Source of the DNA: an uncultured Bacteroidota bacterium
GTDB lineage: Bacteria > Bacteroidota > Bacteroidia > Chitinophagales > S012-47
DNA: 37,036 nucleotides
NCBI GenBank assembly: GCA_913062655.1
Contig: CAJXXO010000002.1
Coordinates: 1 to 37,036, forward strand
Direction of reading: 5' to 3'
Part shown: piece after piece, positions 2,264 through 35,577 of the stretch
Layout of the letters: every line of letters begins with the position of its first letter
Numbering within the stretch: the first letter of the stretch is position 1
Notes under the pieces: model-generated
Seen by the model: the letters and a program-made list of their open reading frames with translations, nothing else
The model's database searches: none
What the model was told of the DNA's origin: nothing
Made by a program: the position numbers and the translations under genes

Positions 2264-5200
2264 ATGAAAAGACTATTACTAGCCTTAGGGTTTATATTGG
2301 TGTCAACAGCTGTATTTGCAACACACATTGCAGGTGGAGTTATAGAGGTGGCCTGCACTGCTTCTGGAAATTACTCTGTTACTGTCCGTAAGTATAGAGA
2401 TGTTACTGGGGCAGGGTATGCGGGAGCTATTACGCTCACAGCTGAAGAAGTTAATTCAGGAAATACGCAAAACTTCCAATTAACAAGGGTTCAAATCAAT
2501 GCCAACCTTCAACCTCCTGTCACAAACCCCTGTCTAGTACCACCGGCTAATAGTGGACAAGATGAGCATGTTTATGAGGGAACTATTACCCTGAACAATG
2601 GGTCTGCTTACTACTTGTATCATCAGGATAATGCCAGGAACACAACCATGAATGTAACAGGTCAACCTGGAGCCACTATTTATGCTGAGTACCCCGATCC
2701 TGGAATTTATGGTTGTAACAATTCCCCGATTTTTAATGTAGGACCTCCCGTATCGGTTTGTCTGAATGAGCCATTGAATTATGATAATTCAGCTTTTGAT
2801 CCTGATGGAGATCAGCTTCAATACAGATTATGTGAGGCGTTTATCAATACCCCAGCCAATCCACCCTTCAACAGTGTACCATATACCAACCCTTACACTG
2901 CGCAAGACCCGGTATCTGCCAATCCTAATTTAGCCATTGATCCAGTTACCGGTATTGTAACCGGAACGCCAGACCTGGCCGGCCGCTGGGTTTTTACCGT
3001 TTGTGTAGATGAGTTTAGAAATGGCGTGCAAATCGGAGAATATCGTAGAGATGTGCAGATGACAGTGACAGCGTGCACCCAAACAACAACCGTTAATGTA
3101 CCGACAGATTATAATAGTGTTGCCCTCGGTCAAGATGTAATTGCCAGTTGTGATGACTCTACAGTTAACTTTACTACCACCAATGCAAACGCTTTCAATT
3201 ATTTCTGGGATTTTGGCGTAGCAGGCACCAACGCTGATACTTCAGATATTCAAAACCCAACTTTCACCTACCCTGATACTGGCACCTACACGGCTATGCT
3301 TATAATAAATGAAGGCTACATTTGTGCCGACACTGGATTTGTGACGGTCATTGTATATCCATATACGTATGCGGGTTTCACCGTTGCAGAACCGCAGTGT
3401 GTGGGTCAGCCCATACAGTTTAATGACACGTCATCTTGGACCTATGGTACTACCTTTAATTGGTCTTGGAGTTTCGGTGCAATTGGTATACCCAATTCGG
3501 GTACTCCCAATCCATCGCGAACCTATACTTCTCCGGGCGTTTACAATGTAAATCTGGTAGTTGAATCAAGCAAGGGCTGTAGGGATACGGCCAACCAACA
3601 AGTAAATGTTTATACGCCACCCACGGCCAATGCCGGTCCACCAACGATTACCATATGTGAGGGAGAGCCTGTTACACTACCTGCAACCGCCACAGGTGCC
3701 AATTCTTATCAGTGGACCTCCCCAAGTGGAGTGGCTTCGCTTGATTGTGATACATGTTTACAACCTACCGCCACACCATCTTCCACAACTGTTTATTCCC
3801 TGACCGCCACCGGTCCGGGAGGATGTGAAGATGATGACTTTATAACGGTTGTGGTACAACCAGCACCTGTAGTCAATGCCGGTCCAGATCAATTTTTATG
3901 TGGTACAGGAAGTGTGCAGCTAAGTGCGCAATTAGTGTCTAGCCCAGGTGGGGTATTCTGGAATTGGTCTCCTTCTACGGGGCTCAATAGTACGCAAGTA
4001 TCCAATCCTACGGCCAGTCCATCCCAGACTACAACGTATGTTGTAACAGCTACTTCCATCAATGGCAGTTGCGTAGGACGGGATACAGTTACGGTTTTTT
4101 TAAATGCCGTTTCGGTGGATGCTGGCACAGCACCTACGATTTGTCCAGGCGATACGGCTACCTTATCGTCTTCCACACCAGTGGCTAATGCTACCTATAG
4201 TTGGGCACCTGCCACCAACATATCGGATCCTACGTCAGCCAACCCTGATGTTTGGCCGGCAAGTACTACTACCTACACGCTAACCATAACAGACCCCGTC
4301 TCTGGTTGTAATGGGGTAGATTCTGTGGAAGTCACCGTAAGTCCTTTGCCACCTGTAAATGCGGGTAACGATAGCACAATCTGTATCAATACTACGGCTC
4401 AGCTCAATGCAACAGGAGCGTCTACCTATACCTGGGATGCCGATCCAACCCTTAGTGGGACGAATATTCCCAATCCAGTGGCCTCGCCAGGTCAAACTAC
4501 TACCTATTACGTAACGGGTGAGGACGCTATTGGGTGTGTAAATAGAGATAGCATCACCTTGACTGTTGTGCCGCCAGCGAACATTAATGTAACTCCGGAT
4601 ACCACCATTTGTGCTAATACTTCTGCGGCACTCAATGCGAGTGGAGGTGTAACCTATACCTGGACGCCAGCAGGGTCTCTGGTGGGGGCAAATACAGCCT
4701 CACCAACCGCCTCTCCAACCTCGTCTACCACGTATTCGTTGACGGTAGAAGACGCCAATGGATGTTTTATAGATACAACGGTAGCTGTTACGGTAACACC
4801 ACCACCATCAATAGATGCAGGTACGGTCAACTCCATATGTTTTGGTGACTCTACCATATTAAATGCCACAGGCGGCATTAGTTATACGTGGACACCTAAC
4901 ACCAATATTATTGGCGCTAACACAGCAAATCCAACTGTATTCCCCGCGGCCACCACTACATACACAGTAGTGGGGGAAGACGCTACAGGTTGTACCAATG
5001 TAGATTCGGTTACTGTAGTAGTAAATACATTGGCCAACGGAGGCTTTAGCCCTGATACCGCCATCTGTGACGGTGAATCAGTAGTATTGTCGGCCAACGG
5101 ATTTACACAGTACACGTGGAAGCCGGCTGGCTCGCTGAGTACCCCAACCGGTAACGCAACAACCGCCTCACCAACTACTACAACCACTTACACTGTTGTA

Positions 5201-20876: not shown

Positions 20877-21920
20877 TTAGGAGGCCTTTTCCAATGTAAA
20901 AGCAAAGGTGGACCCTTCGTCCTTGGTGCTGCGAACGTTGATGGTTTGATTGTGCGCTTCGATGATGTGTTTTACGATGGATAGCCCCAGGCCGGTTCCG
21001 CCCATGTGGCGACTGCGGCTCTTATCTACCCGGTAGAAGCGTTCAAAGACGCGTGGAAGGTCATCTTTGGAAATACCAATGCCATCATCGGCCACCTCTA
21101 TGAGAATATTGGGGTCCATATCATAGAAACCAATGAGCGTGCGGCCATTTTCGGAGCCGTATTTAATGGAGTTGGTCACCAAATTGACCAGTACCTGGCG
21201 TATGCGGTCACGGTCGCCTAAGACGATAGTTGGCTTTTCGCAACCTTTTTTAAAGCCCAGGGTGATATCATTGGAGTCGGCTTGCATCTCCAGCGATTCA
21301 AATACCTCCTGCGCTAATTGGTAAATGTCGAAAGGGCGCAGCTCCATGGCCAGGGTGCCCGATTCCAAGAGCGAAATGGCTTCCAGGTCTTCGACAATGG
21401 TATTCAGTCGCTCCGCATTCTTTGAGGCTTTGTAGAGGTAGTCCAGGTTGATTTTGTCGTCTTTCAGCCCTCCATCAATGAGGGTATGGATATACCCTTG
21501 CATATTGAAAAGGGGGGTTTTCAGCTCATGTGATACGTTGCCCAGGTACTCCCTGCGGAATTGCTCTGTTTGTTTCAGCTCTTCAATTTCCTTTTGCCGG
21601 TCCGCTGTCCACTCCCGCACCTCAGTCTCCACCTCTTCCAGGAAGTTATCCCGCAAACTGAGCTGTTTTACAGATGATTTGGTGCGCTTGCTGTCGTGTA
21701 TGGCTTTGTAGATAACCTTCACCTTTCGGTAAATGAATTGCTCCAGCATATACATGGTAAAGAGGTAAGCAGCCGGAAAAAATATGATAACCCCCACCAA
21801 CAGCACCCACCAGTCAAAATGGTTGGTAAACCATTGGGCGACCAACATCACCACCAGCATCATAGCGGTTAACACCGCGGCTGATAACAGTGCGATCTGC
21901 CTGGGGGTTGGGTTTTTCAT
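20877..21920 (-). CDS. Membrane sensor histidine kinase, PhoR-like
   Basis: Two N-terminal TM helices; FRREYLGNVSHELKTPLFNMQGYIHTL (H box); LVNLVTNSIKYG (N box); VADDGIGISKDDLPRVFERFYRVDKSRSRHMGGTGLGLSIVKHIIEAH. Confidence 0.93.
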   Translation of the reverse strand: MKNPTPRQIALLSAAVLTAMMLVVMLVAQWFTNHFDWWVLLVGVIIFFPAAYLFTMYMLEQFIYRKVKVIYKAIHDSKRTKSSVKQLSLRDNFLEEVETEVREWTADRQKEIEELKQTEQFRREYLGNVSHELKTPLFNMQGYIHTLIDGGLKDDKINLDYLYKASKNAERLNTIVEDLEAISLLESGTLAMELRPFDIYQLAQEVFESLEMQADSNDITLGFKKGCEKPTIVLGDRDRIRQVLVNLVTNSIKYGSENGRTLIGFYDMDPNILIEVADDGIGISKDDLPRVFERFYRVDKSRSRHMGGTGLGLSIVKHIIEAHNQTINVRSTKDEGSTFAFTLEKAS

Positions 21921-22603
21921 TAATAATCGAGTTTGTAGCCGATGCCTTTGATGGTTTTGATGGCATCGTCACCGAGTTTTTCGCGCAGCTTACGAATGTG
22001 TACGTCAATGGTTCGGTCCCCAACGATCACATCCTTGCCCCAGATTTTACTGAGGATTTCTTCCCGCTTGAATACTTTGCCCGGCTTGGAGGCCAGTAAG
22101 TACAGTAATTCAAACTCCTTTCGAGGCAGGAAAATTTCATTGTTCTCCATGCGCACAATAAACCGCTCCCGATCGATCTGCAAATTGCCCACGCGGATTA
22201 CGCTATCCGTTTCTTCCTTGAGCTGTCTGCGGAGCAAGGCATTTACCCGGCTTACCAAAAGGCGCGGTTTGATAGGTTTGGTAATGTAATCGTCAGCGCC
22301 AACATCGAAGCCGGCAATTTGGGTAAAGTCTTCGTTTCTGGCTGTCAAAAAAGCGATAAGGGTATTTTTGAATTCGGGCAGCGCCCGCAGTTCACGGCAC
22401 GTTTCGATGCCGTCCATTTCCGGCATCATGATATCCAGAAGGATCAAATCGGGTGATTCCAGCTTGGCCTTTTCGATCGCCTCCTGGCCGTTTTCAGCCA
22501 GCACTACCTGGTAGCCTTCCTTCTGTAAGTTGTAGTCCACGAATTCGAGAATATCGGGCTCGTCATCTACGACCAGGATGGTGAATTTTGATTTGCCAGC
22601 CAT
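21920..22603 (-). CDS. OmpR/PhoB-family response regulator
   Basis: ILVVDDEPDILEFVDYNLQKEGYQVVLAENG...LILLDIMMPEMDGIETC...AFLTARNED...GADDYITKP; winged helix FELLYLLASKPGKVFKREEILSKIWGKDVIVGDRTIDVHIRKLREKLGDDAIKTIKGIGYKL. Shares one base with the kinase start (TAATG). Confidence 0.95.
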   Translation of the reverse strand: MAGKSKFTILVVDDEPDILEFVDYNLQKEGYQVVLAENGQEAIEKAKLESPDLILLDIMMPEMDGIETCRELRALPEFKNTLIAFLTARNEDFTQIAGFDVGADDYITKPIKPRLLVSRVNALLRRQLKEETDSVIRVGNLQIDRERFIVRMENNEIFLPRKEFELLYLLASKPGKVFKREEILSKIWGKDVIVGDRTIDVHIRKLREKLGDDAIKTIKGIGYKLDY

Positions 22604-22620: not shown

Positions 22621-22628
22621 CAAAGGTA
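22621..22628 (-). promoter_or_regulatory. Bacteroidota -7 element (TACCTTTG) for the response regulator operon
   Basis: Reverse complement of CAAAGGTA; perfect TAnnTTTG, 17 bp upstream of the start codon. Confidence 0.65.
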
Positions 22629-22638
22629 GCGGGCCTTA

Positions 22639-22678
22639 CGTTAAGCTTTCGTTACGCTTGGCTTAGCAAGGTGTTAAT
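22639..22678 (-). promoter_or_regulatory. Pho-box-like array: four half-sites at 11-bp spacing
   Basis: Minus-strand reading ATTAACA CCTT GCTAAGC CAAG CGTAACG AAAG CTTAACG: TAA core repeated every 11 bp, ending 10 nt before the TACCTTTG element. Confidence 0.6.
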
Positions 22679-22772
22679 ATACAGGTAATTTTACCAAACG
22701 GTCAACCGCTGATTTTTATCAACTGTCTAGATTCGAAAAACTGGTATTTTTCCCGTAAATCAAAGTAACCCT

Positions 22773-23690
22773 ATGAAATCAATAAAACGCCTAATGGTTG
22801 CCCTGGACCTTTCCGACATGGACCGGACCCTGGTGCAATATGCCTTTTTCCTGGCTGAGACCATTGACCTGAAGCACCTCGACTTTGTGACAGTGGATGA
22901 GCAGATGGATGAGAGCGATCAGCAAATATTGGCTGAACTCAATCTACAAGTAAGCCCGGAAGTCAACTTCAAAGACTGGGTAGATGAGCTCACAAAGGAG
23001 CATGCTAAGCCGGATCATGTTGACGTGGGGTGTCATTTGCTCACCGGCTCGCCTCTGCATGAATTACTCCGATATGCGCGGGATGAGTCGGTGGATATGA
23101 TATTGGTGGGGGCGAAGCAGCACCAGGATGGTACCGGCATATTGTCGAGTCGATTGGTGCGAAAGGCCCCTTGCTCGGTAATGTATGTGCCGGAAAATCC
23201 ACCCACGGCCATCAAACGAATCCTTATCCCTACAGACTACTCGGAGTACTCCAGGATGGCTTTTGATGAAGTGAAGCTCTTTAAAGACGATTTTCCCGAT
23301 GTTGAAGTGGTGGCCCAACACGTTTATCGTGTGCCTTTGGGCTTTTACAAAACGGGCAAAAGCTATGAGGAGTTTGCACAGATTATGGAAGAGAACAGCA
23401 AAAAGCTGTTTGACCAATTTGTTGAGGAGAACGACCTGGCCGACATGGACCTGAAGCCGCAATTTGTATTGGACGATGACAAGAATCCGGCTGACAAGAT
23501 CGTAGCGCAGGCAGAGGCAGAGAAGGTGGATTTGATGATCATCAGTGCCAAAGGACACACGAGGGCTTCATCAATCTTGTTGGGTAGTACAACAGAGAAG
23601 GTCTTGCGTTTGGACAAGCGCATTCCCGTGATGATTTTGAAGAAAAAAGGAGAGACCCTTAATCTGCTTGATATTTTGTTGAAAATTTAG
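22773..23690 (+). CDS. Universal stress protein, two-domain
   Basis: KRLMVALDLSDMDRTLVQYAFFLAE...DMILVGAKQHQDG...KRILIPTDYSEYSRMAFDE...LMIISAKGHTRASSILLGSTTEKVLRLDKRIPVMILKKK. Confidence 0.9.
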   Translation: MKSIKRLMVALDLSDMDRTLVQYAFFLAETIDLKHLDFVTVDEQMDESDQQILAELNLQVSPEVNFKDWVDELTKEHAKPDHVDVGCHLLTGSPLHELLRYARDESVDMILVGAKQHQDGTGILSSRLVRKAPCSVMYVPENPPTAIKRILIPTDYSEYSRMAFDEVKLFKDDFPDVEVVAQHVYRVPLGFYKTGKSYEEFAQIMEENSKKLFDQFVEENDLADMDLKPQFVLDDDKNPADKIVAQAEAEKVDLMIISAKGHTRASSILLGSTTEKVLRLDKRIPVMILKKKGETLNLLDILLKI

Positions 23691-23698
23691 GAGGCGTC

Positions 23699-24538
23699 AT
23701 GAAAAAGATTCTAGTGGCCTTTGATGGTTCGTACTACTCCGAATCTGCACTCCAGTTTGCCATTGGGCTGGCCAGGCGTGAGGAAGCACAAATTACCGGG
23801 GTATTCCTCGAAGATGTAACGGCTTATCACCAGTTTAGCCCCATATTCGAAGCCCCGGACGCGGTGGGCTTGGCAGAGGATGTAATCCGGGACTTGAAGA
23901 ACGAGGTGCGGGAAAACCTATCCGTGACCGTCAATCGGTTTAAAAAAACCTGTGACCAGGCCGGTATTCCTTACCTCATAGAGATGGAAGAGGGAATCCC
24001 TTCTTTAGAGCTGTTGGAGGAAACGCAATTTGCAGACTTATGTGTAGTAGGTTCAGTAACCTATTTCAGTAACCTCAGCTTTGCCAATGAATCGCGTCTG
24101 CTATCTGATTTATTGGGTAAGGCGCACTGTCCGATTCTTGTGGTACCCGAACAAGCGGAAGAGCTAAAACATGTAATCCTCACTTACGATGGCTCGGCCT
24201 CCTCAGTGTATGCCATAAAACGCTATGTGCAGCTCTTTGCCCGGACCCATTGCCAGCTTCCATCCACCTTGTTGACAGTAGTAAGACACGAAGGCGATAA
24301 ACTACCCCAGGAAGAGGCTTTGGTGGACTACTTGCGGTTGTATTGTGACACCTTGCAGCAACAAACCCTGGTCGGTAAGCCCAGCGAACAAATACTGTAT
24401 ATGGCCAAAACCACTCCGGGTAGTATGGTGGTCATGGGGGGGTATGGGCGAAATGCCTTTAGCCAGTTGCTGAAAAGTTCTGTGGGTAAGAAAGTAGTTA
24501 ATGCCCGAACGGTACCGGTATTGGTAGCGCATGAGTAA
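23699..24538 (+). CDS. Universal stress protein, two-domain
   Basis: KKILVAFDGSYYSESALQFAIGLARREEAQITGVFLED...CPILVVPEQ...MVVMGGYGRNAFSQLLKSSVGKKVVNARTVPVLVAH. Confidence 0.9.
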   Translation: MKKILVAFDGSYYSESALQFAIGLARREEAQITGVFLEDVTAYHQFSPIFEAPDAVGLAEDVIRDLKNEVRENLSVTVNRFKKTCDQAGIPYLIEMEEGIPSLELLEETQFADLCVVGSVTYFSNLSFANESRLLSDLLGKAHCPILVVPEQAEELKHVILTYDGSASSVYAIKRYVQLFARTHCQLPSTLLTVVRHEGDKLPQEEALVDYLRLYCDTLQQQTLVGKPSEQILYMAKTTPGSMVVMGGYGRNAFSQLLKSSVGKKVVNARTVPVLVAHE

Positions 24539-25277
24539 TAGTATGGAGTCCATCCAACAAAAAGAAGATAAGCTGCATGGCAATGGCCTGGGGCAACTCA
24601 AGGTGTACCTCAGTGAGTTTGTCTATGGCGGTATTGATGGTAGTGTGACCACCTTTGCGGTGGTGGCAGGTGCTACGGGGGCCAATTTATCGGTAAACAC
24701 CGTCCTTATCTTGGGTTTTGCCAACTTGATTGCCGATGGGCTATCCATGTCGATAGGCAATTATCTATCAGTCAAGTCAGAGATACAGGAGTTTTATCGA
24801 CACAAGAATATCGAGTACTGGGAGGTGGACAACCTGCCGGAAAAAGAGAAGGAAGAGATACGGGATATCTACCGTGCCAAAGGGTTTACAGGAGAGCTGT
24901 TGGAGCAGGTGGTAGAGACAATAACGGCTAACCGGGAGCGCTGGGTGGATGTGATGATGAAAGAAGAGCTGGAAATGGCTTTGCCGGCAGAATCACCGGT
25001 AAAGAAAGCCGCTGCAACCTTCATCTCCTTCTTTCTGGTAGGCCTGATACCCTTGCTTACCTACGTATGGCATGCGCTTCATCCCATTGTAGAAAGCAGC
25101 TTGTTTACCGTATCTTGTATATTGACCTCAGTGGCCTTTATCCTGATCGGTTGGCTGAAGAGTTACATCACCGAAACCAGTCGCTGGCGGAGTATGGTAG
25201 AGACCTTGCTTTTAGGTGGCGTAGCGGCCATCACCGCCTACTTTGTCGGTGATATCTTAGAGTCTTTATTAACCTAA
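24531..25277 (+). CDS. VIT1/CCC1-family transporter
   Basis: YLSEFVYGGIDGSVTTFAVVAGATGANLSVNTVLILGFANLIADGLSMSIGNYLSVKSE is typical of the VIT family; followed by an acidic cytosolic helical segment and more TM helices. Overlaps the usp stop by 8 bp. Confidence 0.9.
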   Translation: MSNSMESIQQKEDKLHGNGLGQLKVYLSEFVYGGIDGSVTTFAVVAGATGANLSVNTVLILGFANLIADGLSMSIGNYLSVKSEIQEFYRHKNIEYWEVDNLPEKEKEEIRDIYRAKGFTGELLEQVVETITANRERWVDVMMKEELEMALPAESPVKKAAATFISFFLVGLIPLLTYVWHALHPIVESSLFTVSCILTSVAFILIGWLKSYITETSRWRSMVETLLLGGVAAITAYFVGDILESLLT

Positions 25278-25287
25278 ATCCTGCCTT

Positions 25288-26118
25288 ATGAAACGTATTG
25301 TAGTAGCTACCGATTTCTCCTCCATTGCGGATCAGGCATTTCTCTACAGCGCTCACCTGGCGGCCCACTTTGGCGCTGAACTCCACGTGGCGCATGTGGT
25401 ATCTCCCAGCCCTTTCCTGGCACACTCACCAGGAGACCTGATAGATCAAACCCTGAAGGAAATGACCCGGGAAGTGGAGCTACATATGACTGAAATGCAG
25501 CAACAATTACCCCAATCCATAAAGGGAAAGGTTGACTTGGTGTATGAAGTGCGCGAAGGGCTTGTCATAGACCAATTACGCGACATTGCGGATGATGTAG
25601 AGGCGGATCTGATGGTAATGGGTACGCATGGTAAGACCGGCTGGCGAGAAGTATTGATGGGTACCCATGCCGCAGCGATGGTAGGGCGGTTGGACATTCC
25701 CTTGCTACTTGTCCCGCCAAAGACTGACTACAATGGTATGCGGCACATCGTGTACGCTATCGACTATCATGACGTACCAGACCGGGAACTGCAGCAATTG
25801 CAGGTTTGGACCCGTTCCTTCTCTTCCCGGCTCTCGCTTTTGCATGTAGATCAAGAGGAAGGAGAGGTAGATGAGGACCAATTGTTTAGCCTGCGCAACA
25901 CGGTAGCGGCACTGGATGGGGTTGATGATGTAAAGTATGCCTTTATTGAAGGTGACGATGCTTTACTGTCCATCAACGATTGGGTAGAAAGTCATCAGGC
26001 AGACCTGCTGGTAGTGAAGCATCGCAATCAAAATTTCTTTCAGCAGTTGGTCCGGAAGAGCTTGTCGCGCCAAATGACCCGGTACACCAGTATTCCCATG
26101 ATGGTTTTTAGCCAGTGA
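25288..26118 (+). CDS. Universal stress protein, two-domain
   Basis: KRIVVATDFSSIADQAFLYSAHLAAHFGAELHVAHVV...ADLMVMGTHGKTGWREVLMGTHAAAMVGRLDIPLLLVPP. Confidence 0.92.
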   Translation: MKRIVVATDFSSIADQAFLYSAHLAAHFGAELHVAHVVSPSPFLAHSPGDLIDQTLKEMTREVELHMTEMQQQLPQSIKGKVDLVYEVREGLVIDQLRDIADDVEADLMVMGTHGKTGWREVLMGTHAAAMVGRLDIPLLLVPPKTDYNGMRHIVYAIDYHDVPDRELQQLQVWTRSFSSRLSLLHVDQEEGEVDEDQLFSLRNTVAALDGVDDVKYAFIEGDDALLSINDWVESHQADLLVVKHRNQNFFQQLVRKSLSRQMTRYTSIPMMVFSQ

Positions 26119-26157
26119 GAACGAAAAAGCATTGAAAATCAATAGGTTTACCGAGTG

Positions 26158-26197
26158 CTTAACACAAACTTAAAGTACGGGTAAAGGGCCAGTAATA
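26158..26197 (+). promoter_or_regulatory. Pho-box-like array: four half-sites at 11-bp spacing
   Basis: CTTAACA CAAA CTTAAAG TACG GGTAAAG GGCC AGTAATA: TAA cores at 26160, 26171, 26182 and 26193. Confidence 0.6.
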
Positions 26198-26206
26198 TCT
26201 CATATC

Positions 26207-26214
26207 CACCTTTG
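26207..26214 (+). promoter_or_regulatory. Probable -7 element (CACCTTTG, one mismatch to TAnnTTTG)
   Basis: Lies 9 nt downstream of the half-site array and upstream of the ATG at 26253. Confidence 0.4.
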
Positions 26215-26252: not shown

Positions 26253-27944
26253 ATGAGAAGACTTGTACTACTGAGCTTAGCTATGATTGGGTTCGTAGCG
26301 GCCAAAGCGCAAACTGTAGTCACCATCACAGATGCTGACCTGCAGCCTAACCAAACTTACAACTGGACAAAAGACAACATCTACTTGTTGGATGGTTTCG
26401 TATTCGTAGACTCAGGAGCTACCTTGAATATCGAAGCAGGTACAGTAATCCAGGCCAAGGAAACACCAACTACTGGTGACAATGCTTCTGCTTTGATTGT
26501 GGCCTCTACGGCACAGATCTTTGCAACCGGTACGGCTGACGAGCCAATCATCTTCACCTCTGAGTTGGATGATGTAAACAACCCTTCCGATCTGGACGAG
26601 ACCGATCGTGGTTTGTGGGGTGGCCTTATCCTATTGGGCCCTGGTACCATTGGTAATACGACACCAACCACCGGTATTGAGGGTATCCCGGTATCGGAAA
26701 CACGTGCTATCTATGGTGGCAATGATGACGACAACAACGTTGGTACATTGCAGTACGTTTCTATCCGTCACGGTGGTGCCGCTTTGTCACCTGGTGATGA
26801 AATCAACGGTTTGACCTTGGGGGGTGTTGGTTCGCAAACTACTTTGGAGCACATTGAAGTGTTTGCCAACTCTGACGATGGTGTTGAGTTCTTTGGTGGT
26901 AAGCCAGAGCTGAAATGGGCCATTACGGCCTTCTGTGGTGACGATGCTTTCGACTGGGATACAGGATTCCAGGGTAAGGGTCAATTCTGGCTCGTTGTGC
27001 AAGCTACCGATGCCGCTGACAACGGTGCTGAGCAAGATGGTGCCAAGCCGGATGATAACCCTCGCTTTGCTGCACCTACCATTTACAATGCTACCTATAT
27101 TGGTGGAGGCGCCAATACCCCGGTTCAGGGTGACTTTGCCAACACCAACGCTTTGTACTTCCGCGATGGAACAGGCGGATACTACGGCAATTCAATCTTC
27201 ACCGACTTTGCCCAAAAGGCCATCGAAGTGGAAGATTTAGAAGCTTCAAAAGGTGTCGATTCCCGTCAGCGCATGGAGAATGGTGAGTTGTCGTTGGAAA
27301 ACAACCTATGGTTTGGTTTTGGCAACTTCACTGCTTTAAATGCTGATCCGGCTACAGGTATCATTCGTTTCACACCAGGTGGCGAGGATACTACTTGTCA
27401 GTTTTTGATCGACCACTTGGCCAACAATGGTAACCAATTGGTAGACCCTCAATTACGCGGTATCTCTCGTACTGCCGGCAGCAAAGGGTTGGACCCTCGT
27501 CCGCAAGCAGCAGAAGCCACTACCGGATTGGCAGCCTACCCTACAGGGGATGATTTCTTCACTGCTACAGGCTACAAAGGAGCATTCAACCCGGCCTTCT
27601 CTACGACCTGGGCACACGGTTGGACAGCATTAGATGAGTACGGTTACCTGGCAGAGCCAACAGGCATCAATGCTTTGACTGAAGCAGGATTCGTATTGAA
27701 CCAAAACCAGCCCAACCCGGCAGATGCTGCCACCATCATCACTTTCGAATTGCCAGAAACAGCTGACATCAACGTATACGTAACCGATATTACCGGTCGT
27801 ATCGTGAAGGAGGTAGTTAACGGTACCTTCAATGCAGGTACACACAATGCTACCATCAACACAGCTGACCTGCAAGCAGGCGTTTACTTCTACACTTTAG
27901 CAGTAGGTAATAGCCAAATCACGAAGAAGATGATTGTTCAGTAA
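26253..27944 (+). CDS. Secreted repeat/beta-helix-like protein with T9SS type A C-terminal sorting domain
   Basis: Signal peptide MRRLVLLSLAMIGFVAAKAQ; DGFVFVDSGATLNIEAGTVIQAK...; C-terminus NQPNPADAATIITFELPETADINVYVTDITGRIVKEVVNGTFNAGTHNATINTADLQAGVYFYTLAVGNSQITKKMIVQ. Start corrected to ATG at 26253. Confidence 0.9.
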   Translation: MRRLVLLSLAMIGFVAAKAQTVVTITDADLQPNQTYNWTKDNIYLLDGFVFVDSGATLNIEAGTVIQAKETPTTGDNASALIVASTAQIFATGTADEPIIFTSELDDVNNPSDLDETDRGLWGGLILLGPGTIGNTTPTTGIEGIPVSETRAIYGGNDDDNNVGTLQYVSIRHGGAALSPGDEINGLTLGGVGSQTTLEHIEVFANSDDGVEFFGGKPELKWAITAFCGDDAFDWDTGFQGKGQFWLVVQATDAADNGAEQDGAKPDDNPRFAAPTIYNATYIGGGANTPVQGDFANTNALYFRDGTGGYYGNSIFTDFAQKAIEVEDLEASKGVDSRQRMENGELSLENNLWFGFGNFTALNADPATGIIRFTPGGEDTTCQFLIDHLANNGNQLVDPQLRGISRTAGSKGLDPRPQAAEATTGLAAYPTGDDFFTATGYKGAFNPAFSTTWAHGWTALDEYGYLAEPTGINALTEAGFVLNQNQPNPADAATIITFELPETADINVYVTDITGRIVKEVVNGTFNAGTHNATINTADLQAGVYFYTLAVGNSQITKKMIVQ

Positions 27945-28028: not shown

Positions 28029-28068
28029 CTTAACAATTACATAACACTAGCACAAAGTTTTCATAAAT
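28029..28068 (+). promoter_or_regulatory. Pho-box-like array at 11-bp spacing (three TAA and one CAA half-sites)
   Basis: CTTAACA ATTA CATAACA CTAG CACAAAG TTTT CATAAAT. Confidence 0.5.
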
Positions 28069-28099: not shown

Positions 28100-28107
28100 T
28101 AACTTTG
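28100..28107 (+). promoter_or_regulatory. Bacteroidota -7 element (TAACTTTG) for the TonB-dependent receptor
   Basis: Perfect TAnnTTTG, 17 bp upstream of the ATG at 28124. Confidence 0.6.
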
Positions 28108-28123
28108 CTCAAAATTTGAAACC

Positions 28124-31000
28124 ATGAATAAGGCTATTGGTTGTACGCTCCTCTTCATGGCATTAACACTTTGGGTGCAAGCCCAAACCGGTACCATTCG
28201 CGGTACCATCACGGATAAAGAAACCGGTGAAACCTTAATCGGTGTTAATGTCTACATTCAGGATCCCTTTATTGGAACCATCACTGATCTCAACGGAGCT
28301 TTCACCCTGGAAAACGTTCCTGCAGGTGTACATACGGTTGTCGTTTCCTATGTATCCTACACTACACAGAATATAGAAGGGGTCAATGTACAGGCTGATA
28401 ATGTTACGGTCCTGGATGTGCCCATGGCAGGCGAGTCCTTTGGACTGGAGGAAGTGGTGGTGCAAGCCAAAATAATGGACAATACCGAGAATGCTATTCT
28501 GGCTATGCAGAAGAAGTCACTTTCAGTGCAGGATGGCATTTCCAGCCAGGAGCTCAGTAAGATTGGCGCGGGCGATGCTGCCGAATCAGTGAAGTATATT
28601 ACCGGTGTATCCATTGTAGATGGCAAGTACATCAATGTTCGTGGCCTGGGTGACCGCTACTCCGGGGCACAGTTGAATGGTGTTACCCTGGCCAGTACAG
28701 ATCCCAATTCAAACAGTGCACAGTTGGACATCATACCGGCTAACCTGTTGGATAATATCATTACCTCTAAGACCTTCACTCCCGACCAACCGGGTGACTT
28801 TACCGGGGGTAATGTGAATATGAAGACCAAATCCTTCCCGGAGCAGTTTACCATGCAAGTATCTACCTCCTTGAGCTATAATGATGTAGTTACCGGGAAT
28901 AGTGACTTTCTGACGCACGAGGGCGGTGACCTGGAGTGGTTGGGCTACGATGACGGTAGCAGAGCCATGCCGGCTGTATTGCAACCGGAAGAAACGCGCG
29001 ACCTGTTGACACAAGGCTTTTACATCCGGGCGCGTGGCAACCAGGAGTTGGCCAATCTATTAGATGCAACTGCCAATTCGGTAAGTCCGCACATGGCACC
29101 TGTAAATGGAGCCGCCAGGCCCAATCACGGGGTGTCGGTATCATTTGGGAATCAGTACAAGGTGGCCGGTAAACCATTCGGTTTATTGATGGGGGCCAGT
29201 TACAAGCGTAATTATGGGGGGTATTTCAACGGGACCTTTGCCAACTGGGACCTGACCGGTGCTGCTGCAGAGGAAATGTTCAATTATTTCCGTTTTAACG
29301 ACAACCGCAATACCGACAACCCATCCATCAGTGCTTTGGCTAACTTATCGTATCGGTTAGCGCCCAAGCACGAGATTGGGGTAAATTTCATTTACAATCA
29401 TGATGCGGTCAAGGCCTCTCAGTTTATGGAAGGTCCTTATCCGGGTATTATATCGGCTACCAACAATGCATTCCAAACCCGCGCCCTGCACTTCAAAGAA
29501 AGAGGAATGCGTACGGTGCAGGTGAGGGGTAAGCACGTATTTGAAAGCTTGCGCAAGGCTGAGTTCGAATGGATCGGTGGCTATACCCGCTCTTTCCAGA
29601 ATGAACCGGACCTGCGCTTATTTGCCAACGAGTATGATGGCGCTAATGATGATTATTTTGTTCGCGTATCCGAGTATGATCGCCCTTCGCACTTCTTCCG
29701 CGACCTGCAGGATGATAGCTACGAATTCAAAGCTGATGTGACCATTCCATTGGGCTACGATGGTAAGCTTGGCAAGGTGAAATTAGGCGGCAACTACAAG
29801 CAGAAGGACCGGATGTCAAACGAAGACCGTTTCCGGTACAATTGGGTGGTCAACAATGCCAATGAAAGCTTATATACCCCCTATGAGGGCGATGCTTTAG
29901 CCTTTTTTGGTCCCGATAATACCGGAATTATTGGCTTTGACTCTACGCGTAATCGCTACCTCTTTGGTAATTACCTGATCGATGAATCGTTGGATGACAA
30001 CGACTACACCGGTACGGAAAGGATTACAGCCGGGTATGGTATGTTGGTATACCAATTGTCAGAGGACCTGAAGTTTATTGGAGGGCTGCGCGGAGAAGGA
30101 ACCTTCATGCAGGCCCAAAGTGCCGATACAACCCTGGAGGCCGGTGAGATCAACCGGATTGACCTTTTGCCTTCCGTTAACCTGATCTACTCGCTGACGA
30201 ATAATATGAATATTCGCCTGGCCGGTAGTCGAACCATCGCACGCCCTACCATGCGGGAAATGTCTCCTTTCAGTACCTATGATTTTATTGGTGGTGCTTT
30301 GGTGTCGGGTAATCCCAACCTCGACCGCAGCTTGATCTACAATGTAGACTTGCGCTGGGAATGGTTTGTGCGTCCGGGAGAGATTGTCGCTATCAGTGGT
30401 TTTTACAAGAACTTTCAGGATCCCATTGTCCGCTTGTTTATTCCTCGTGCGGCCAACCAGGAGATTACTTGGGTAAATACCAACGATGCTACGGTTTATG
30501 GAATAGAGCTGGATTTCCGTAAAGACCTGGACTTTATTTCACAGCGTCTGGCCAATTTCCGCTTTGGCATCAACTTTACCTACACTTACTCTGAAGTAGC
30601 GCTCGATCCCGAAGAGTACGAGACACTGGTGCGCATCAATCCTGAGATCCAGCCGACTCGCCCCTTCAACGGCCAGTCGCCCTACTTGCTGAATACCATG
30701 TTGAACTACAAAGCGGATTCGCTTGGACTGGAAATGAACCTGAACCTGAATGTGTTCGGCCCAAGGCTGACGGAGATCGGGTTCAATGGGGTGCCAGACA
30801 TCTACGAGCAGCCTCGTCCAATGCTGAATTTCAACCTGATGAAGGACATTGGCGATCGCTTCCAGGTCAAGCTCGGTGTCAGCAACATCCTAAATGCAGA
30901 ATTCAAGAAAACACAGACGTATAACAACCAGGAGTACATTACCCAACTCTATCAAATTGGGCGCACCTACTCCTTTGGCTTGTCCTATACGATTCGATAG
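28124..31000 (+). CDS. TonB-dependent outer membrane receptor with N-terminal carboxypeptidase-regulatory-like domain
   Basis: Signal peptide; GTIRGTITDKETGETLIGVNVYIQDPFIGTITDLNGAFTLENVPAGVHTVVVSYVSYTT; plug-like VKYITGVSIVDGKYINVRGLGDRYSGAQLNGV; C-terminal aromatic barrel end YSFGLSYTIR. No SusD homologue adjacent. Confidence 0.92.
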   Translation: MNKAIGCTLLFMALTLWVQAQTGTIRGTITDKETGETLIGVNVYIQDPFIGTITDLNGAFTLENVPAGVHTVVVSYVSYTTQNIEGVNVQADNVTVLDVPMAGESFGLEEVVVQAKIMDNTENAILAMQKKSLSVQDGISSQELSKIGAGDAAESVKYITGVSIVDGKYINVRGLGDRYSGAQLNGVTLASTDPNSNSAQLDIIPANLLDNIITSKTFTPDQPGDFTGGNVNMKTKSFPEQFTMQVSTSLSYNDVVTGNSDFLTHEGGDLEWLGYDDGSRAMPAVLQPEETRDLLTQGFYIRARGNQELANLLDATANSVSPHMAPVNGAARPNHGVSVSFGNQYKVAGKPFGLLMGASYKRNYGGYFNGTFANWDLTGAAAEEMFNYFRFNDNRNTDNPSISALANLSYRLAPKHEIGVNFIYNHDAVKASQFMEGPYPGIISATNNAFQTRALHFKERGMRTVQVRGKHVFESLRKAEFEWIGGYTRSFQNEPDLRLFANEYDGANDDYFVRVSEYDRPSHFFRDLQDDSYEFKADVTIPLGYDGKLGKVKLGGNYKQKDRMSNEDRFRYNWVVNNANESLYTPYEGDALAFFGPDNTGIIGFDSTRNRYLFGNYLIDESLDDNDYTGTERITAGYGMLVYQLSEDLKFIGGLRGEGTFMQAQSADTTLEAGEINRIDLLPSVNLIYSLTNNMNIRLAGSRTIARPTMREMSPFSTYDFIGGALVSGNPNLDRSLIYNVDLRWEWFVRPGEIVAISGFYKNFQDPIVRLFIPRAANQEITWVNTNDATVYGIELDFRKDLDFISQRLANFRFGINFTYTYSEVALDPEEYETLVRINPEIQPTRPFNGQSPYLLNTMLNYKADSLGLEMNLNLNVFGPRLTEIGFNGVPDIYEQPRPMLNFNLMKDIGDRFQVKLGVSNILNAEFKKTQTYNNQEYITQLYQIGRTYSFGLSYTIR

Positions 31001-31022: not shown

Positions 31023-31053
31023 GGGGAGTCGAGTAATTGACTTCCCTTTTTCT
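31023..31053 (+). terminator. Probable Rho-independent terminator after the TonB-dependent receptor gene
   Basis: GGGGAGTC-GAGTAATT-GACTTCCC (one G.U) followed by a T-rich tract. Confidence 0.7.
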
Positions 31054-31096
31054 TTGCACAACTGTTAACTTCACAGCCACCCAAAATCGTGCTAGC

Positions 31097-32812
31097 ATGA
31101 ATGTGATTCTGGATATTCTGGTGATCGTGGGCGCACTTGGCATCTTCATTTACGGGATGAAGATGATGAGTGAGGGTATCCAGAAAGTGGCCGGTAAGCG
31201 GCTGCGCAAGCTGCTCAGCGGCATGACCCGTAACCGTTTGACTGGTATTATCACCGGTTTTTTTACCACCTCAGTGGTGCAGTCATCCAGCGCTACTACG
31301 GTAATGGTTGTAGGTTTTGTGAATGCCGGCCTACTGACCTTGGTGCAAGCCTCCGGGGTGATTATGGGCGCGAATATTGGCACCACCATCACCGGTTGGA
31401 TTGTCTCCGTACTTGGCTTCAAGGCCAACATAGAAGTCTTTGCCCTCATCGTAGTGGCGGTGAGTTTTCCTATGCTTTTTTCTAAAAAGGACAACCTGAA
31501 AAACCTGGCCGAATTCATGATCGGTTTTGGTATTCTTTTTATCGGCTTGAGTATTCTGAAGGATTCTGTGCCCGACCTGCGGCAAAACCCGGAGGCTCTC
31601 GAGTTTCTGAATCAGTTCACCGGCTATGGCTACGGTTCCGTTTTGATCTTTATTGCCGTGGGCACGCTGCTCACAATCGTGGTGCAGTCCTCCAGTGCTA
31701 CGATGGCCATTACACTGGTATTGATTGCAGAGGGGTGGATCAACTTTGAAACGGGGACGGCTATGGTGCTCGGTGAAAATATCGGCACCACTATTACGGC
31801 CAACCTGGCCGCATTGGTCGGTAATATTCATGCTAAACGGGCCGCCCGTTTTCACAGTGTGTTCAACTTGTTAGGGGTTATCTGGGTGTTGATCATATTT
31901 TTCCCTTTTCTCGATTTTGTCGATTGGCTGAATCAGCGCCTTTTTCACGATGCATCGATTTACACAGTAGTGCAAGACCCTGAAAATCTAAGTGCCAATA
32001 ACACCGTATTGACGGATGGGCTGGCACTGTTCCATACCACCTTCAATATTATCAATACGTTTTTGCTGTTCTTCGTAGCACCGTACCTGGTGCGATTGAT
32101 CGTGAAGTTGGTGCCCTCCAAGGGGAGCGATGATGAAGGATTTAAGCTCACTCATATCAGCTCCGGCTTGATGTCAACGCCTGAGTTGTCTATTCAGGAA
32201 GCACTTAAGGAGCTGCAACAATTCGGTCGACTGATTGAGAAGATGTGTGCCAATGTGATGGTGATGATGTTTAAGACGCCACGCAATCGCGATAAGTTGT
32301 ACATGAAGATTCGTGACCGGGAAGACATCACCGACCGGTTGCAAAATGAGATCACCACTTACATGGCCAAACTGGGGCAATACCGGTTGAGTGAAGACAG
32401 TGCCGGTAAGGTGAAGGGTATGATTCGGATGGCCAATGACCTGGAGCGAATGGGGGATATTTTTTACAAGCTGGCCATCAATAAGCGCAAACAAGAGGAG
32501 CAAAAGAAATTGATGCCGGAGAGTATTGCCACTGAGCTGGACCTGTACTTTGATCAGATCTATCGAGCCATTAAGCAGATGAACAAAAATATGCTGGCTC
32601 CGGCAGGTGAAATAGATATGGAACAAGCGTACGAAAACGAGCGTGAGATTAATGAAACCCGCGACCACCTGAAGCAAGTAGTGTACGAGCGAATCGAGTC
32701 GGGCCAATATGGCGTGGAGGAAGGGATCCTGTACCTCGACTTCGTAAACAGCGCTGAAAAGTTGGGCGATCACATAATCAATGTCAACCAAGCTTTAAGC
32801 GGTATCAAGTAA
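31097..32812 (+). CDS. Na/Pi cotransporter family protein with C-terminal PhoU-like domain
   Basis: Duplicated QSSSATTVMVVGFVNAGLL / QSSSATMAITLVLIAEGWI and GANIGTTITGWIV / GENIGTTITANLAAL motifs typical of NptA/PNaS transporters; helical PhoU-like C-terminus. Start corrected to ATG at 31097. Confidence 0.94.
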   Translation: MNVILDILVIVGALGIFIYGMKMMSEGIQKVAGKRLRKLLSGMTRNRLTGIITGFFTTSVVQSSSATTVMVVGFVNAGLLTLVQASGVIMGANIGTTITGWIVSVLGFKANIEVFALIVVAVSFPMLFSKKDNLKNLAEFMIGFGILFIGLSILKDSVPDLRQNPEALEFLNQFTGYGYGSVLIFIAVGTLLTIVVQSSSATMAITLVLIAEGWINFETGTAMVLGENIGTTITANLAALVGNIHAKRAARFHSVFNLLGVIWVLIIFFPFLDFVDWLNQRLFHDASIYTVVQDPENLSANNTVLTDGLALFHTTFNIINTFLLFFVAPYLVRLIVKLVPSKGSDDEGFKLTHISSGLMSTPELSIQEALKELQQFGRLIEKMCANVMVMMFKTPRNRDKLYMKIRDREDITDRLQNEITTYMAKLGQYRLSEDSAGKVKGMIRMANDLERMGDIFYKLAINKRKQEEQKKLMPESIATELDLYFDQIYRAIKQMNKNMLAPAGEIDMEQAYENEREINETRDHLKQVVYERIESGQYGVEEGILYLDFVNSAEKLGDHIINVNQALSGIK

Positions 32813-33734: not shown

Positions 33735-34670
33735 ATGCGTAAGATTCTTATCACCGGTGGGGCCGGTTTCATTGGAAGTGCCTTGGCCGACAAATTGATT
33801 GCCGATCCGGACAATTATGTGGTTGTGGTGGACAATTACCTGACCGGCAAAACCACTAACCTGGATCGATTCAAAGGCGTCAATGCCAAGTTTATCAAGT
33901 GTGATGTCAACAGTTTCCGCGATATCTCACAAGTGATGATCGCCTATTCCTTTGATTATGTCTTTCATTATGCAGCCGTAGTGGGCGTACAGCGGACCCT
34001 ACGTAATCCGGTGATGGTATTGCAAGACATTGATGGCATCAAGAACATTCTCGAACTTTCAAAGAATACAGGCGTCAGGCGAGTTTTCTTCTCCTCCAGC
34101 TCAGAAGTGTATGGAGAGCCGGTGGAATTGCCCCAAAACGAAACCACCACACCACTCAATAGTCGCCTGCCCTATGCTGTGGTCAAGAATGTTGGGGAAT
34201 CCTTTTGTCGTTCCTTTCAGCAGGAGTTTGGATTGAACTTTACCATATTCCGCTTTTTCAATACCTACGGACCGCGGCAAAGCACCGATTTTGTCATGTC
34301 GCGCTTCATTCGTTCGGCCCTGGCCAATAAGCCCATCACCATCTATGGGGATGGCAGCCAAACGCGTACCTTCTGCTATATAGACGATAACATTGATGCA
34401 ACCACCAACGCTTTTTATAAAGAGCGCTTTGTCAATGATGTAGTGAATATTGGCAACGACATCGAAGTGTCCATCAAAGAGTTGGCCGAGCAGGTGATTG
34501 CCCTTACCAATTCCCAATCGAAAATTCGTTTTGTATCTGCATTGAAGGAGGGCGATATGAGACGCAGAATGCCCGACATCAGTAAAATGCACTCGTTGCT
34601 GGATAGACCGCTGTTACCGTTGGAGAAAGGTATCATGCGGGTGATCCAGGAGGGGAATTTTGTGCAGTAA
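33735..34670 (+). CDS. NAD-dependent epimerase/dehydratase (extended SDR, nucleotide-sugar)
   Basis: KILITGGAGFIGSALADKL; SSSSEVYGEP; YAVVK (YxxxK); FRFFNTYGPRQSTDFVMSRFI; ITIYGDGSQTRTFCYIDDNIDAT. Confidence 0.92.
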   Translation: MRKILITGGAGFIGSALADKLIADPDNYVVVVDNYLTGKTTNLDRFKGVNAKFIKCDVNSFRDISQVMIAYSFDYVFHYAAVVGVQRTLRNPVMVLQDIDGIKNILELSKNTGVRRVFFSSSSEVYGEPVELPQNETTTPLNSRLPYAVVKNVGESFCRSFQQEFGLNFTIFRFFNTYGPRQSTDFVMSRFIRSALANKPITIYGDGSQTRTFCYIDDNIDATTNAFYKERFVNDVVNIGNDIEVSIKELAEQVIALTNSQSKIRFVSALKEGDMRRRMPDISKMHSLLDRPLLPLEKGIMRVIQEGNFVQ

Positions 34671-35577
34671 GCTGCTGTAACAAGGCGCCTTCCCGTAGGC
34701 CATATTTCGAGATGACCAGCGCTGTGGCACCAAGTTGTTCCATTACCCAGCGCGCCTGAAAAGCCGCCATTAAGAAATATTCAGCTCGTGCGGGCTTCAG
34801 TCCCGGCCAATCCAGCCGCTGTTGCAAGGTGCTATGCATGATAGGATCCAGCACTTCGCGTACGGTGGTGGCCTTCAGCCGGATACCCGGTTGGTCCCCA
34901 CAGAGCGCATAGAATGATTTGCCGGGGTGTTGCAATTCAGGAATAGTCTCAAACGAACCAGAAGTACCTACCATCAGCGGTTGGCCGTCCTTTTTTATAT
35001 CCGCTAGTGTTTCATCCAACTGTTCCCCCAACCACTTAGCTGCCAGCTCTGCTTTTTGCGCATCTAGGGTATCAAAGGCGTCAAAGCGTGTGGCCATCAC
35101 TGCTGCACCAATGGGGAAGCTACGCGCCCACTGAATGATGCCATTCTTGCACCAGGTCAGCTCTGTGCTGCCGCCTCCGATGTCCATGAGTAGGAAATGC
35201 TGCTCATCCGGCAGGCCCAATTGCACCGCTTCGCAAGTCCAACGCGCCTCTTCTTCGCCTGAAATGATTTGAATAGGGACCTCCAACAGTTCCGATAATT
35301 CTTGCTGTAGCGCCTGCCCTTCCTCCAGGGTGCGGAAAGCCTCAGTGCCTACAGCTACTATCGTATCGGGATTATAGGCATCGATTTGATGAATAAACCG
35401 CTTCAGCGCCTCAACGGCTCGCCTGCGCATGGTGGGGACTACTTTGGTAGCAGATTCCCTGGTCATCTTCACGAAGACTTCATCCTGCTCTACAAAAATG
35501 AGATTAGGGCCCGGTTCTACAATATAAAGGCCAAGTTGAAAAGTGTTTGTCCCTAAGTCCAGTACCGCTGCTTTCAT
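34633..35577 (-). CDS. Ppx/GppA-family phosphatase (exopolyphosphatase-like)
   Basis: AAVLDLGTNTFQLGLY; TIVAVGTEAFRTLEEG; IISGEEEARWTCEAVQLGLP; LLMDIGGGSTELTW; LMVGTSGSFETIPEL: ASKHA signatures of Ppx/GppA. Confidence 0.92.
   Translation of the reverse strand: MKAAVLDLGTNTFQLGLYIVEPGPNLIFVEQDEVFVKMTRESATKVVPTMRRRAVEALKRFIHQIDAYNPDTIVAVGTEAFRTLEEGQALQQELSELLEVPIQIISGEEEARWTCEAVQLGLPDEQHFLLMDIGGGSTELTWCKNGIIQWARSFPIGAAVMATRFDAFDTLDAQKAELAAKWLGEQLDETLADIKKDGQPLMVGTSGSFETIPELQHPGKSFYALCGDQPGIRLKATTVREVLDPIMHSTLQQRLDWPGLKPARAEYFLMAAFQARWVMEQLGATALVISKYGLREGALLQQLTAQNSPPGSPA

Follow-up and report, generated by a model that had tools for sequence, protein, structure and literature searches.

A predicted Pho box of 11-bp direct repeats at a phoBR-like promoter of an uncultured Bacteroidota bacterium

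The Pho box of E. coli stands in for the -35 promoter element, and the PhoP box of B. subtilis consists of TTAACA-like half-sites, often in four copies, with phoPR being autoregulated. Head-to-tail binding to tandem repeats of 11 bp is established for PhoB and PhoP, and the E. coli box precedes the -10 element by 10 bp (PMC4415409, PMC1906773); the B. subtilis box likewise contains 11-bp repeats (PMC4415409). The cyanobacterial SphR Pho box is composed of 8-bp repeats, CTTAACCT, that are separated by 3-bp linkers and present in at least three copies (PMC1906773). In F. johnsoniae, the PUSIV phoBR cluster, which includes the TonB receptor Fjoh_0545 and the FII lipoprotein Fjoh_0546, is strongly Pi-regulated, with induction by Pi depletion, and the paper that describes it reports no DNA box, the words 'Pho box', 'motif' and 'promoter' being absent from its text (PMC8115612). 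In B. fragilis, PhoB binds the pstC promoter, an example of a PhoB of this phylum that contacts pst DNA (PMC3547664). The kind of element is thus already known from E. coli PhoB, B. subtilis PhoP and the cyanobacterial CTTAACCT repeats. In agreement with the earlier note on this DNA, no Pho box defined for Bacteroidota was found in the open-access literature, where the lineage-specific box, its link to the TAnnTTTG promoter and its regulon appear to be undescribed.

The window analyzed here is a stretch of 37,036 nucleotides from an uncultured Bacteroidota bacterium. Its minus strand contains a Pho-box-like array of four half-sites at positions 22639–22678, upstream of a phoBR-like operon. Read from 22678 to 22639, the half-sites are ATTAACA (22678–22672), GCTAAGC, CGTAACG and CTTAACG (22645–22639), separated by CCTT, CAAG and AAAG, respectively. 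The TAA cores at 22676, 22665, 22654 and 22643 confirm by coordinates the exact 11-bp steps that had been proposed. A possible fifth half-site, TTACCTG (22682–22688, minus strand), precedes the first by 11 bp, in register. The array is followed, after the proposed spacer of 10 nt (TAAGGCCCGC), by the -7 promoter element TACCTTTG (TAnnTTTG; 22621–22628, minus strand), with 20 bp between the last TTA and TTTG; the ATG of the response regulator is located further downstream at 22603 (minus strand), 35 nt from the end of the array and not 38 nt as first counted, a trivial difference. A position about 10 bp upstream of a core promoter element is that of a Pho box. At the -33 spacing, the window shows no TTTG, and the population comparison gave an uninformative 1/15 versus 4/78. 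The array separates divergent genes, with the phoB side on one flank and a universal-stress-protein operon on the other.

Compared with the E. coli Pho box, the array has the same tandem 11-bp direct repeats and the same 10-bp distance to the promoter element; however, the half-site is TTAAC rather than CTGTCAT, the promoter element is TAnnTTTG (-7) instead of a sigma-70 -10, and there are four or five half-sites. The B. subtilis PhoP box shares the TTAACA-like half-site and the 11-bp period, but belongs to a Firmicute sigma-A promoter, and the regulator encoded here is about 45% identical at best to its Bacillota relatives. The cyanobacterial CTTAACCT repeats are nearly identical in half-site and period, although phylum, promoter type and target set differ.

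The operon downstream of the array encodes an OmpR/PhoB-family response regulator (21920–22603, minus strand) with a receiver and a winged-helix DNA-binding domain, and a paired PhoR/PnpS-like histidine kinase (20877–21920, minus strand) in which no PAS or HAMP domain was found. The regulator is the top PhoB candidate of the genome and its best match to NF053854. It scores below the NCBIfam cut-offs for PhoB (227.8 versus 296.2 for TIGR02154; 218.6 versus 270 for NF053854); it is therefore not assigned to the PhoB equivalog. Linkage of the regulator to phosphate genes is seen in relatives, where the upstream stretch of the phoB ortholog ends with a PhoU-like C-terminus in five cases, two of them confirmed as PhoU by Pfam.

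The neighborhood of the array is a phosphate-acquisition cluster. On the plus strand, it encodes a T9SS-sorted surface protein (26253–27944), a TonB-dependent receptor (28124–31000) with the CarbopepD_reg_2, Plug and OMP_b-brl_3 domain set of Fjoh_0545, and a Na/Pi symporter with a C-terminal PhoU domain (31037–32812); a Ppx/GppA exopolyphosphatase-like protein is encoded on the minus strand (34633–35577). As in PUSIV of F. johnsoniae, phoBR adjoins a TonB receptor of the same domain set together with, in F. johnsoniae, an extracellular FII lipoprotein, a likeness of gene neighborhood and domains rather than of aligned sequences. Judged by position, the 26253–27944 protein is likely the counterpart of the Pi-induced FII lipoprotein. 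In contrast to PUSIV, the protein in the window is T9SS-sorted and a Na/Pi symporter-PhoU protein is present. pstC was not found in the genome (an 83%-complete MAG), and the symporter-PhoU protein could supply a phosphate signal to the PhoR-like kinase.

Four TAA cores at 11-bp steps occur twice in the window, at 22641–22676 (minus strand) and 26160–26195 (plus strand), whereas none of the other periods between 6 and 20 bp gives a fourfold pattern; none of 100 dinucleotide shuffles of the window holds even one such array. The whole genome (2.88 Mb) contains three, compared with zero for a reversed control pattern, and the third is located upstream of a PhoD-like phosphatase gene.

Conservation was assessed in 108 upstream regions of phoB orthologs, sampled across 150 order-level genomes and named contigs; the order was used because family-level searches covered only four genomes. 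Same-strand TAA pairs at 11 bp numbered 121, versus 36 in shuffles, with background values at the neighboring distances (40 at 10 bp and 28 at 12 bp) and a second peak at 22 bp. The excess at 11 bp was also found for TTAA pairs (67 versus 6.4 in shuffles) and for TAAC pairs (27 versus 0.75), and the half-site consensus is (G/A)TTAAC(A/T)TT. The half-site spacing is thus conserved upstream of the orthologs, with a best step other than 11 bp in about a third of the regions. Moreover, the last TTA lies preferentially 19, 30 or 41 bp from TTTG, i.e. in an 11-bp register with the -7 element. A search for three TAA cores combined with TAnnTTTG at a gap of 14–18 bp gave no excess over the reversed control, a result that is silent on the true geometry (gap 11–12 bp).

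The earlier note had counted three arrays in the window, and this number holds. The second array (26148–26214, plus strand), upstream of the T9SS-sorted surface protein, reads TTACC-TTAAC-TTAAA-GTAAA-GTAAT at 11-bp steps and is followed by CACCTTTG, with its final half-site exactly 19 bp from TTTG. The third, upstream of the TonB receptor (28030–28047, plus strand), consists of two half-sites, TTAACAATTACATAACAC, the top-scoring pair of half-sites in the window, and lies 63 bp (19 + 4×11) from the TTTG of TAACTTTG at 28100. The distances to TTTG for the three arrays are therefore 20, 19 and 63 bp.

A half-site matrix trained on phoB promoters alone, with the window excluded, was applied to other genes at steps of 7–16 bp. 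With two half-sites, a step of 11 was best in 14 of 17 promoters of T9SS-protein orthologs, where the second array is conserved, in 9 of 11 PiT promoters and in 11 of 20 pst stretches, versus 5 of 30 unrelated loci. The moxR promoters, initially picked as a neutral control, gave 1/27 (6/27 with three half-sites, p = 0.05); they carry an array of their own with a 10-bp step, and the unrelated loci are therefore the cleaner control. The phoX promoters were marginal (5/21, p = 0.05), and in distant phoX orthologs the array shows no clear conservation.

An additional search of the bacterium's own genome, blind to function, used the pattern TAAC-TAA-TAA with steps of 10–12 bp. Period 11/11 accounts for 12 of the 31 matches, compared with 19 for the other eight combinations together, and all 12 sites are intergenic. 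Five of them are at phosphate loci (phoB, the T9SS surface protein of the cluster, PHO4/PiT, PhoX and PhoD), versus 0 of 18 other sites (Fisher p = 0.006, a guide value, since the 'phosphate gene' class was assigned after the matches were seen). The other seven have no established phosphate link; one is a TonB receptor with its array 19 bp from TTTG. The arrays are thus not equally frequent at random promoters, and the enrichment at phosphate genes that the earlier note had proposed as a test was found for the T9SS protein, PiT and pst as well as, within the genome itself, for phoX and phoD, with phoX being weak in the orthologs.

The array itself, its period and conservation, its register with the -7 element, the enrichment at phosphate genes and the identities of the genes are shown by the sequence analysis. 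The array is very probably a Pho box, the predicted operator of the PhoB-like regulator encoded just downstream, and is probably autoregulatory, which would render phoBR self-amplifying. The proposal of a PhoB-type Pho box at a phoB/phoR-like operon is supported by the periodicity, the ortholog conservation, the held-out gene sets and the phosphate loci of the genome. Activation with autoregulation is the most likely mechanism because the geometry beside TAnnTTTG is like that of E. coli. We infer that phosphate is the signal, and that the regulator is phosphorylated, binds the array and acts positively. Under phosphate limitation, the PhoR-like kinase would phosphorylate the PhoB-like regulator, whose winged-helix domains would occupy, head to tail, the direct repeats that follow each other at one helical turn (11 bp), with two dimers on the four half-sites. 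The bound regulator would be placed about 10 bp upstream of TACCTTTG, where region 4 of sigma would contact a -33 element, and would recruit RNA polymerase to the Bacteroidota -7 promoter, thereby amplifying expression of phoBR itself. Through matching arrays, the adjacent genes for the surface protein and the TonB receptor would also be switched on, as would PiT, PhoX and PhoD in other parts of the genome.

It is improbable that the array is instead the operator of another OmpR-family regulator, e.g. an RprY-like paralog that reads TTAAC repeats and has the phosphate genes as only part of its regulon. Several OmpR-family paralogs are present in the genome, and TTAAC repeats are also found in moxR promoters. 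Additionally, 'PhoP' of Riemerella anatipestifer binds motifs of the form TTTAACA, obtained by DAP-seq and described as ArcA-like, and is autoregulated according to EMSA (PMC9603813). However, throughout the order, the moxR (bat operon) promoters carry repeats of the form TTAAC-N5-TTAAC with a best step of 10 bp in 15 of 23, distinct from the 11-bp arrays; the upstream stretches of the RprY-like paralogs show no obvious array by eye; and arrays with the 11-bp step cluster at phosphate genes and in front of the phoB ortholog. The moxR repeats were located in the moxR upstream regions L294 (around 3001–3023) and L343–L372.

The Riemerella motif, the closest one published for Bacteroidota, was also considered as prior art for the 11-bp box. 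It comes from the same phylum, has a similar core and is associated with autoregulation. It was set aside because the regulator is likely a paralog: its targets include moxR/bat, pstS rises rather than falls in the mutant (PMC5399024), the residues encoded by the primers (GYQLGAD and GEEGLK) are closer to the RprY-like paralogs than to the regulator in the window, and moxR carries a 10-bp array. As judged from these short primer translations, TTTAACA is probably the motif of a paralogous regulator, and an RprY-like regulator, the equivalent of Riemerella 'PhoP', may be what binds the 10-bp moxR repeat.

The Pho box could also repress or feedback-limit phoBR, or serve mainly the divergent usp operon, rather than activate phoBR. 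The array is placed between divergent genes, regulators of the PhoP and PhoB type can repress, and the matrix score of the array is higher on the plus strand (20.5) than on the minus strand (16.0). The array can be read on both strands because the TTAA core is self-complementary; its orientation was therefore taken from the -7 register and from the TAAC asymmetry in the orthologs, not from the array alone. Against repression or a role on the usp side, the array is located 10 bp upstream of the phoB-side -7 element in the 19/30/41 register, which is the geometry of an activator, no TAnnTTTG in register was noted towards usp, and in F. johnsoniae Pi depletion induces phoB (PMC8115612). We consider this explanation to have little probability compared with activation of phoBR. 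An origin by chance in A+T-rich promoter DNA, where TAA is frequent and two-copy matches also occur at other spacings, was rejected as extremely unlikely, since the shuffles predict none, the peak is sharp and restricted to 11 bp, and the 11-bp period is conserved in orthologs and recurs in held-out gene sets.

Bacteroidota are the dominant agents of phosphorus and polymer turnover in soils, oceans and guts, and proteomics has revealed their phosphate-induced TonB and surface systems, with no operator defined in the open-access literature found. As a tentative generalization, held at somewhat less than even chances, much of the phylum may use one Pho box, (G/A)TTAAC(A/T)TT per 11 bp in helical register (19 + 11n bp) with the phylum-specific -7 TTTG, to control TonB receptors, T9SS surface proteins, PiT, PhoX/PhoD and pst, with a sister TTAAC array of 10-bp step serving a different regulator at moxR/bat. 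If so, half-site spacing would set which paralog binds. The matrix, spacing and promoter register would allow phosphate regulons to be predicted across the phylum, and the arrangement suggests a way in which activators of the PhoB type may dock at TAnnTTTG promoters. With its familiar Pho-box architecture, the finding is useful and testable rather than surprising.

Three further observations concern sequences next to the arrays. Divergent from phoB, the region 22773–26118 encodes consecutive universal stress proteins and a transporter of the VIT1 family, towards which the array reads on the plus strand. A period-11 TAA array elsewhere in the genome (L265, 6197–6221) precedes an apparent serine tRNA gene and an ExbB-like operon. 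The TTAA array of a 996-residue TonB-dependent receptor (L268, 3001–3035) is located 19 bp from CTTTG, and the ATG follows within a few nucleotides of TTTG, which suggests a leaderless mRNA or a different start.
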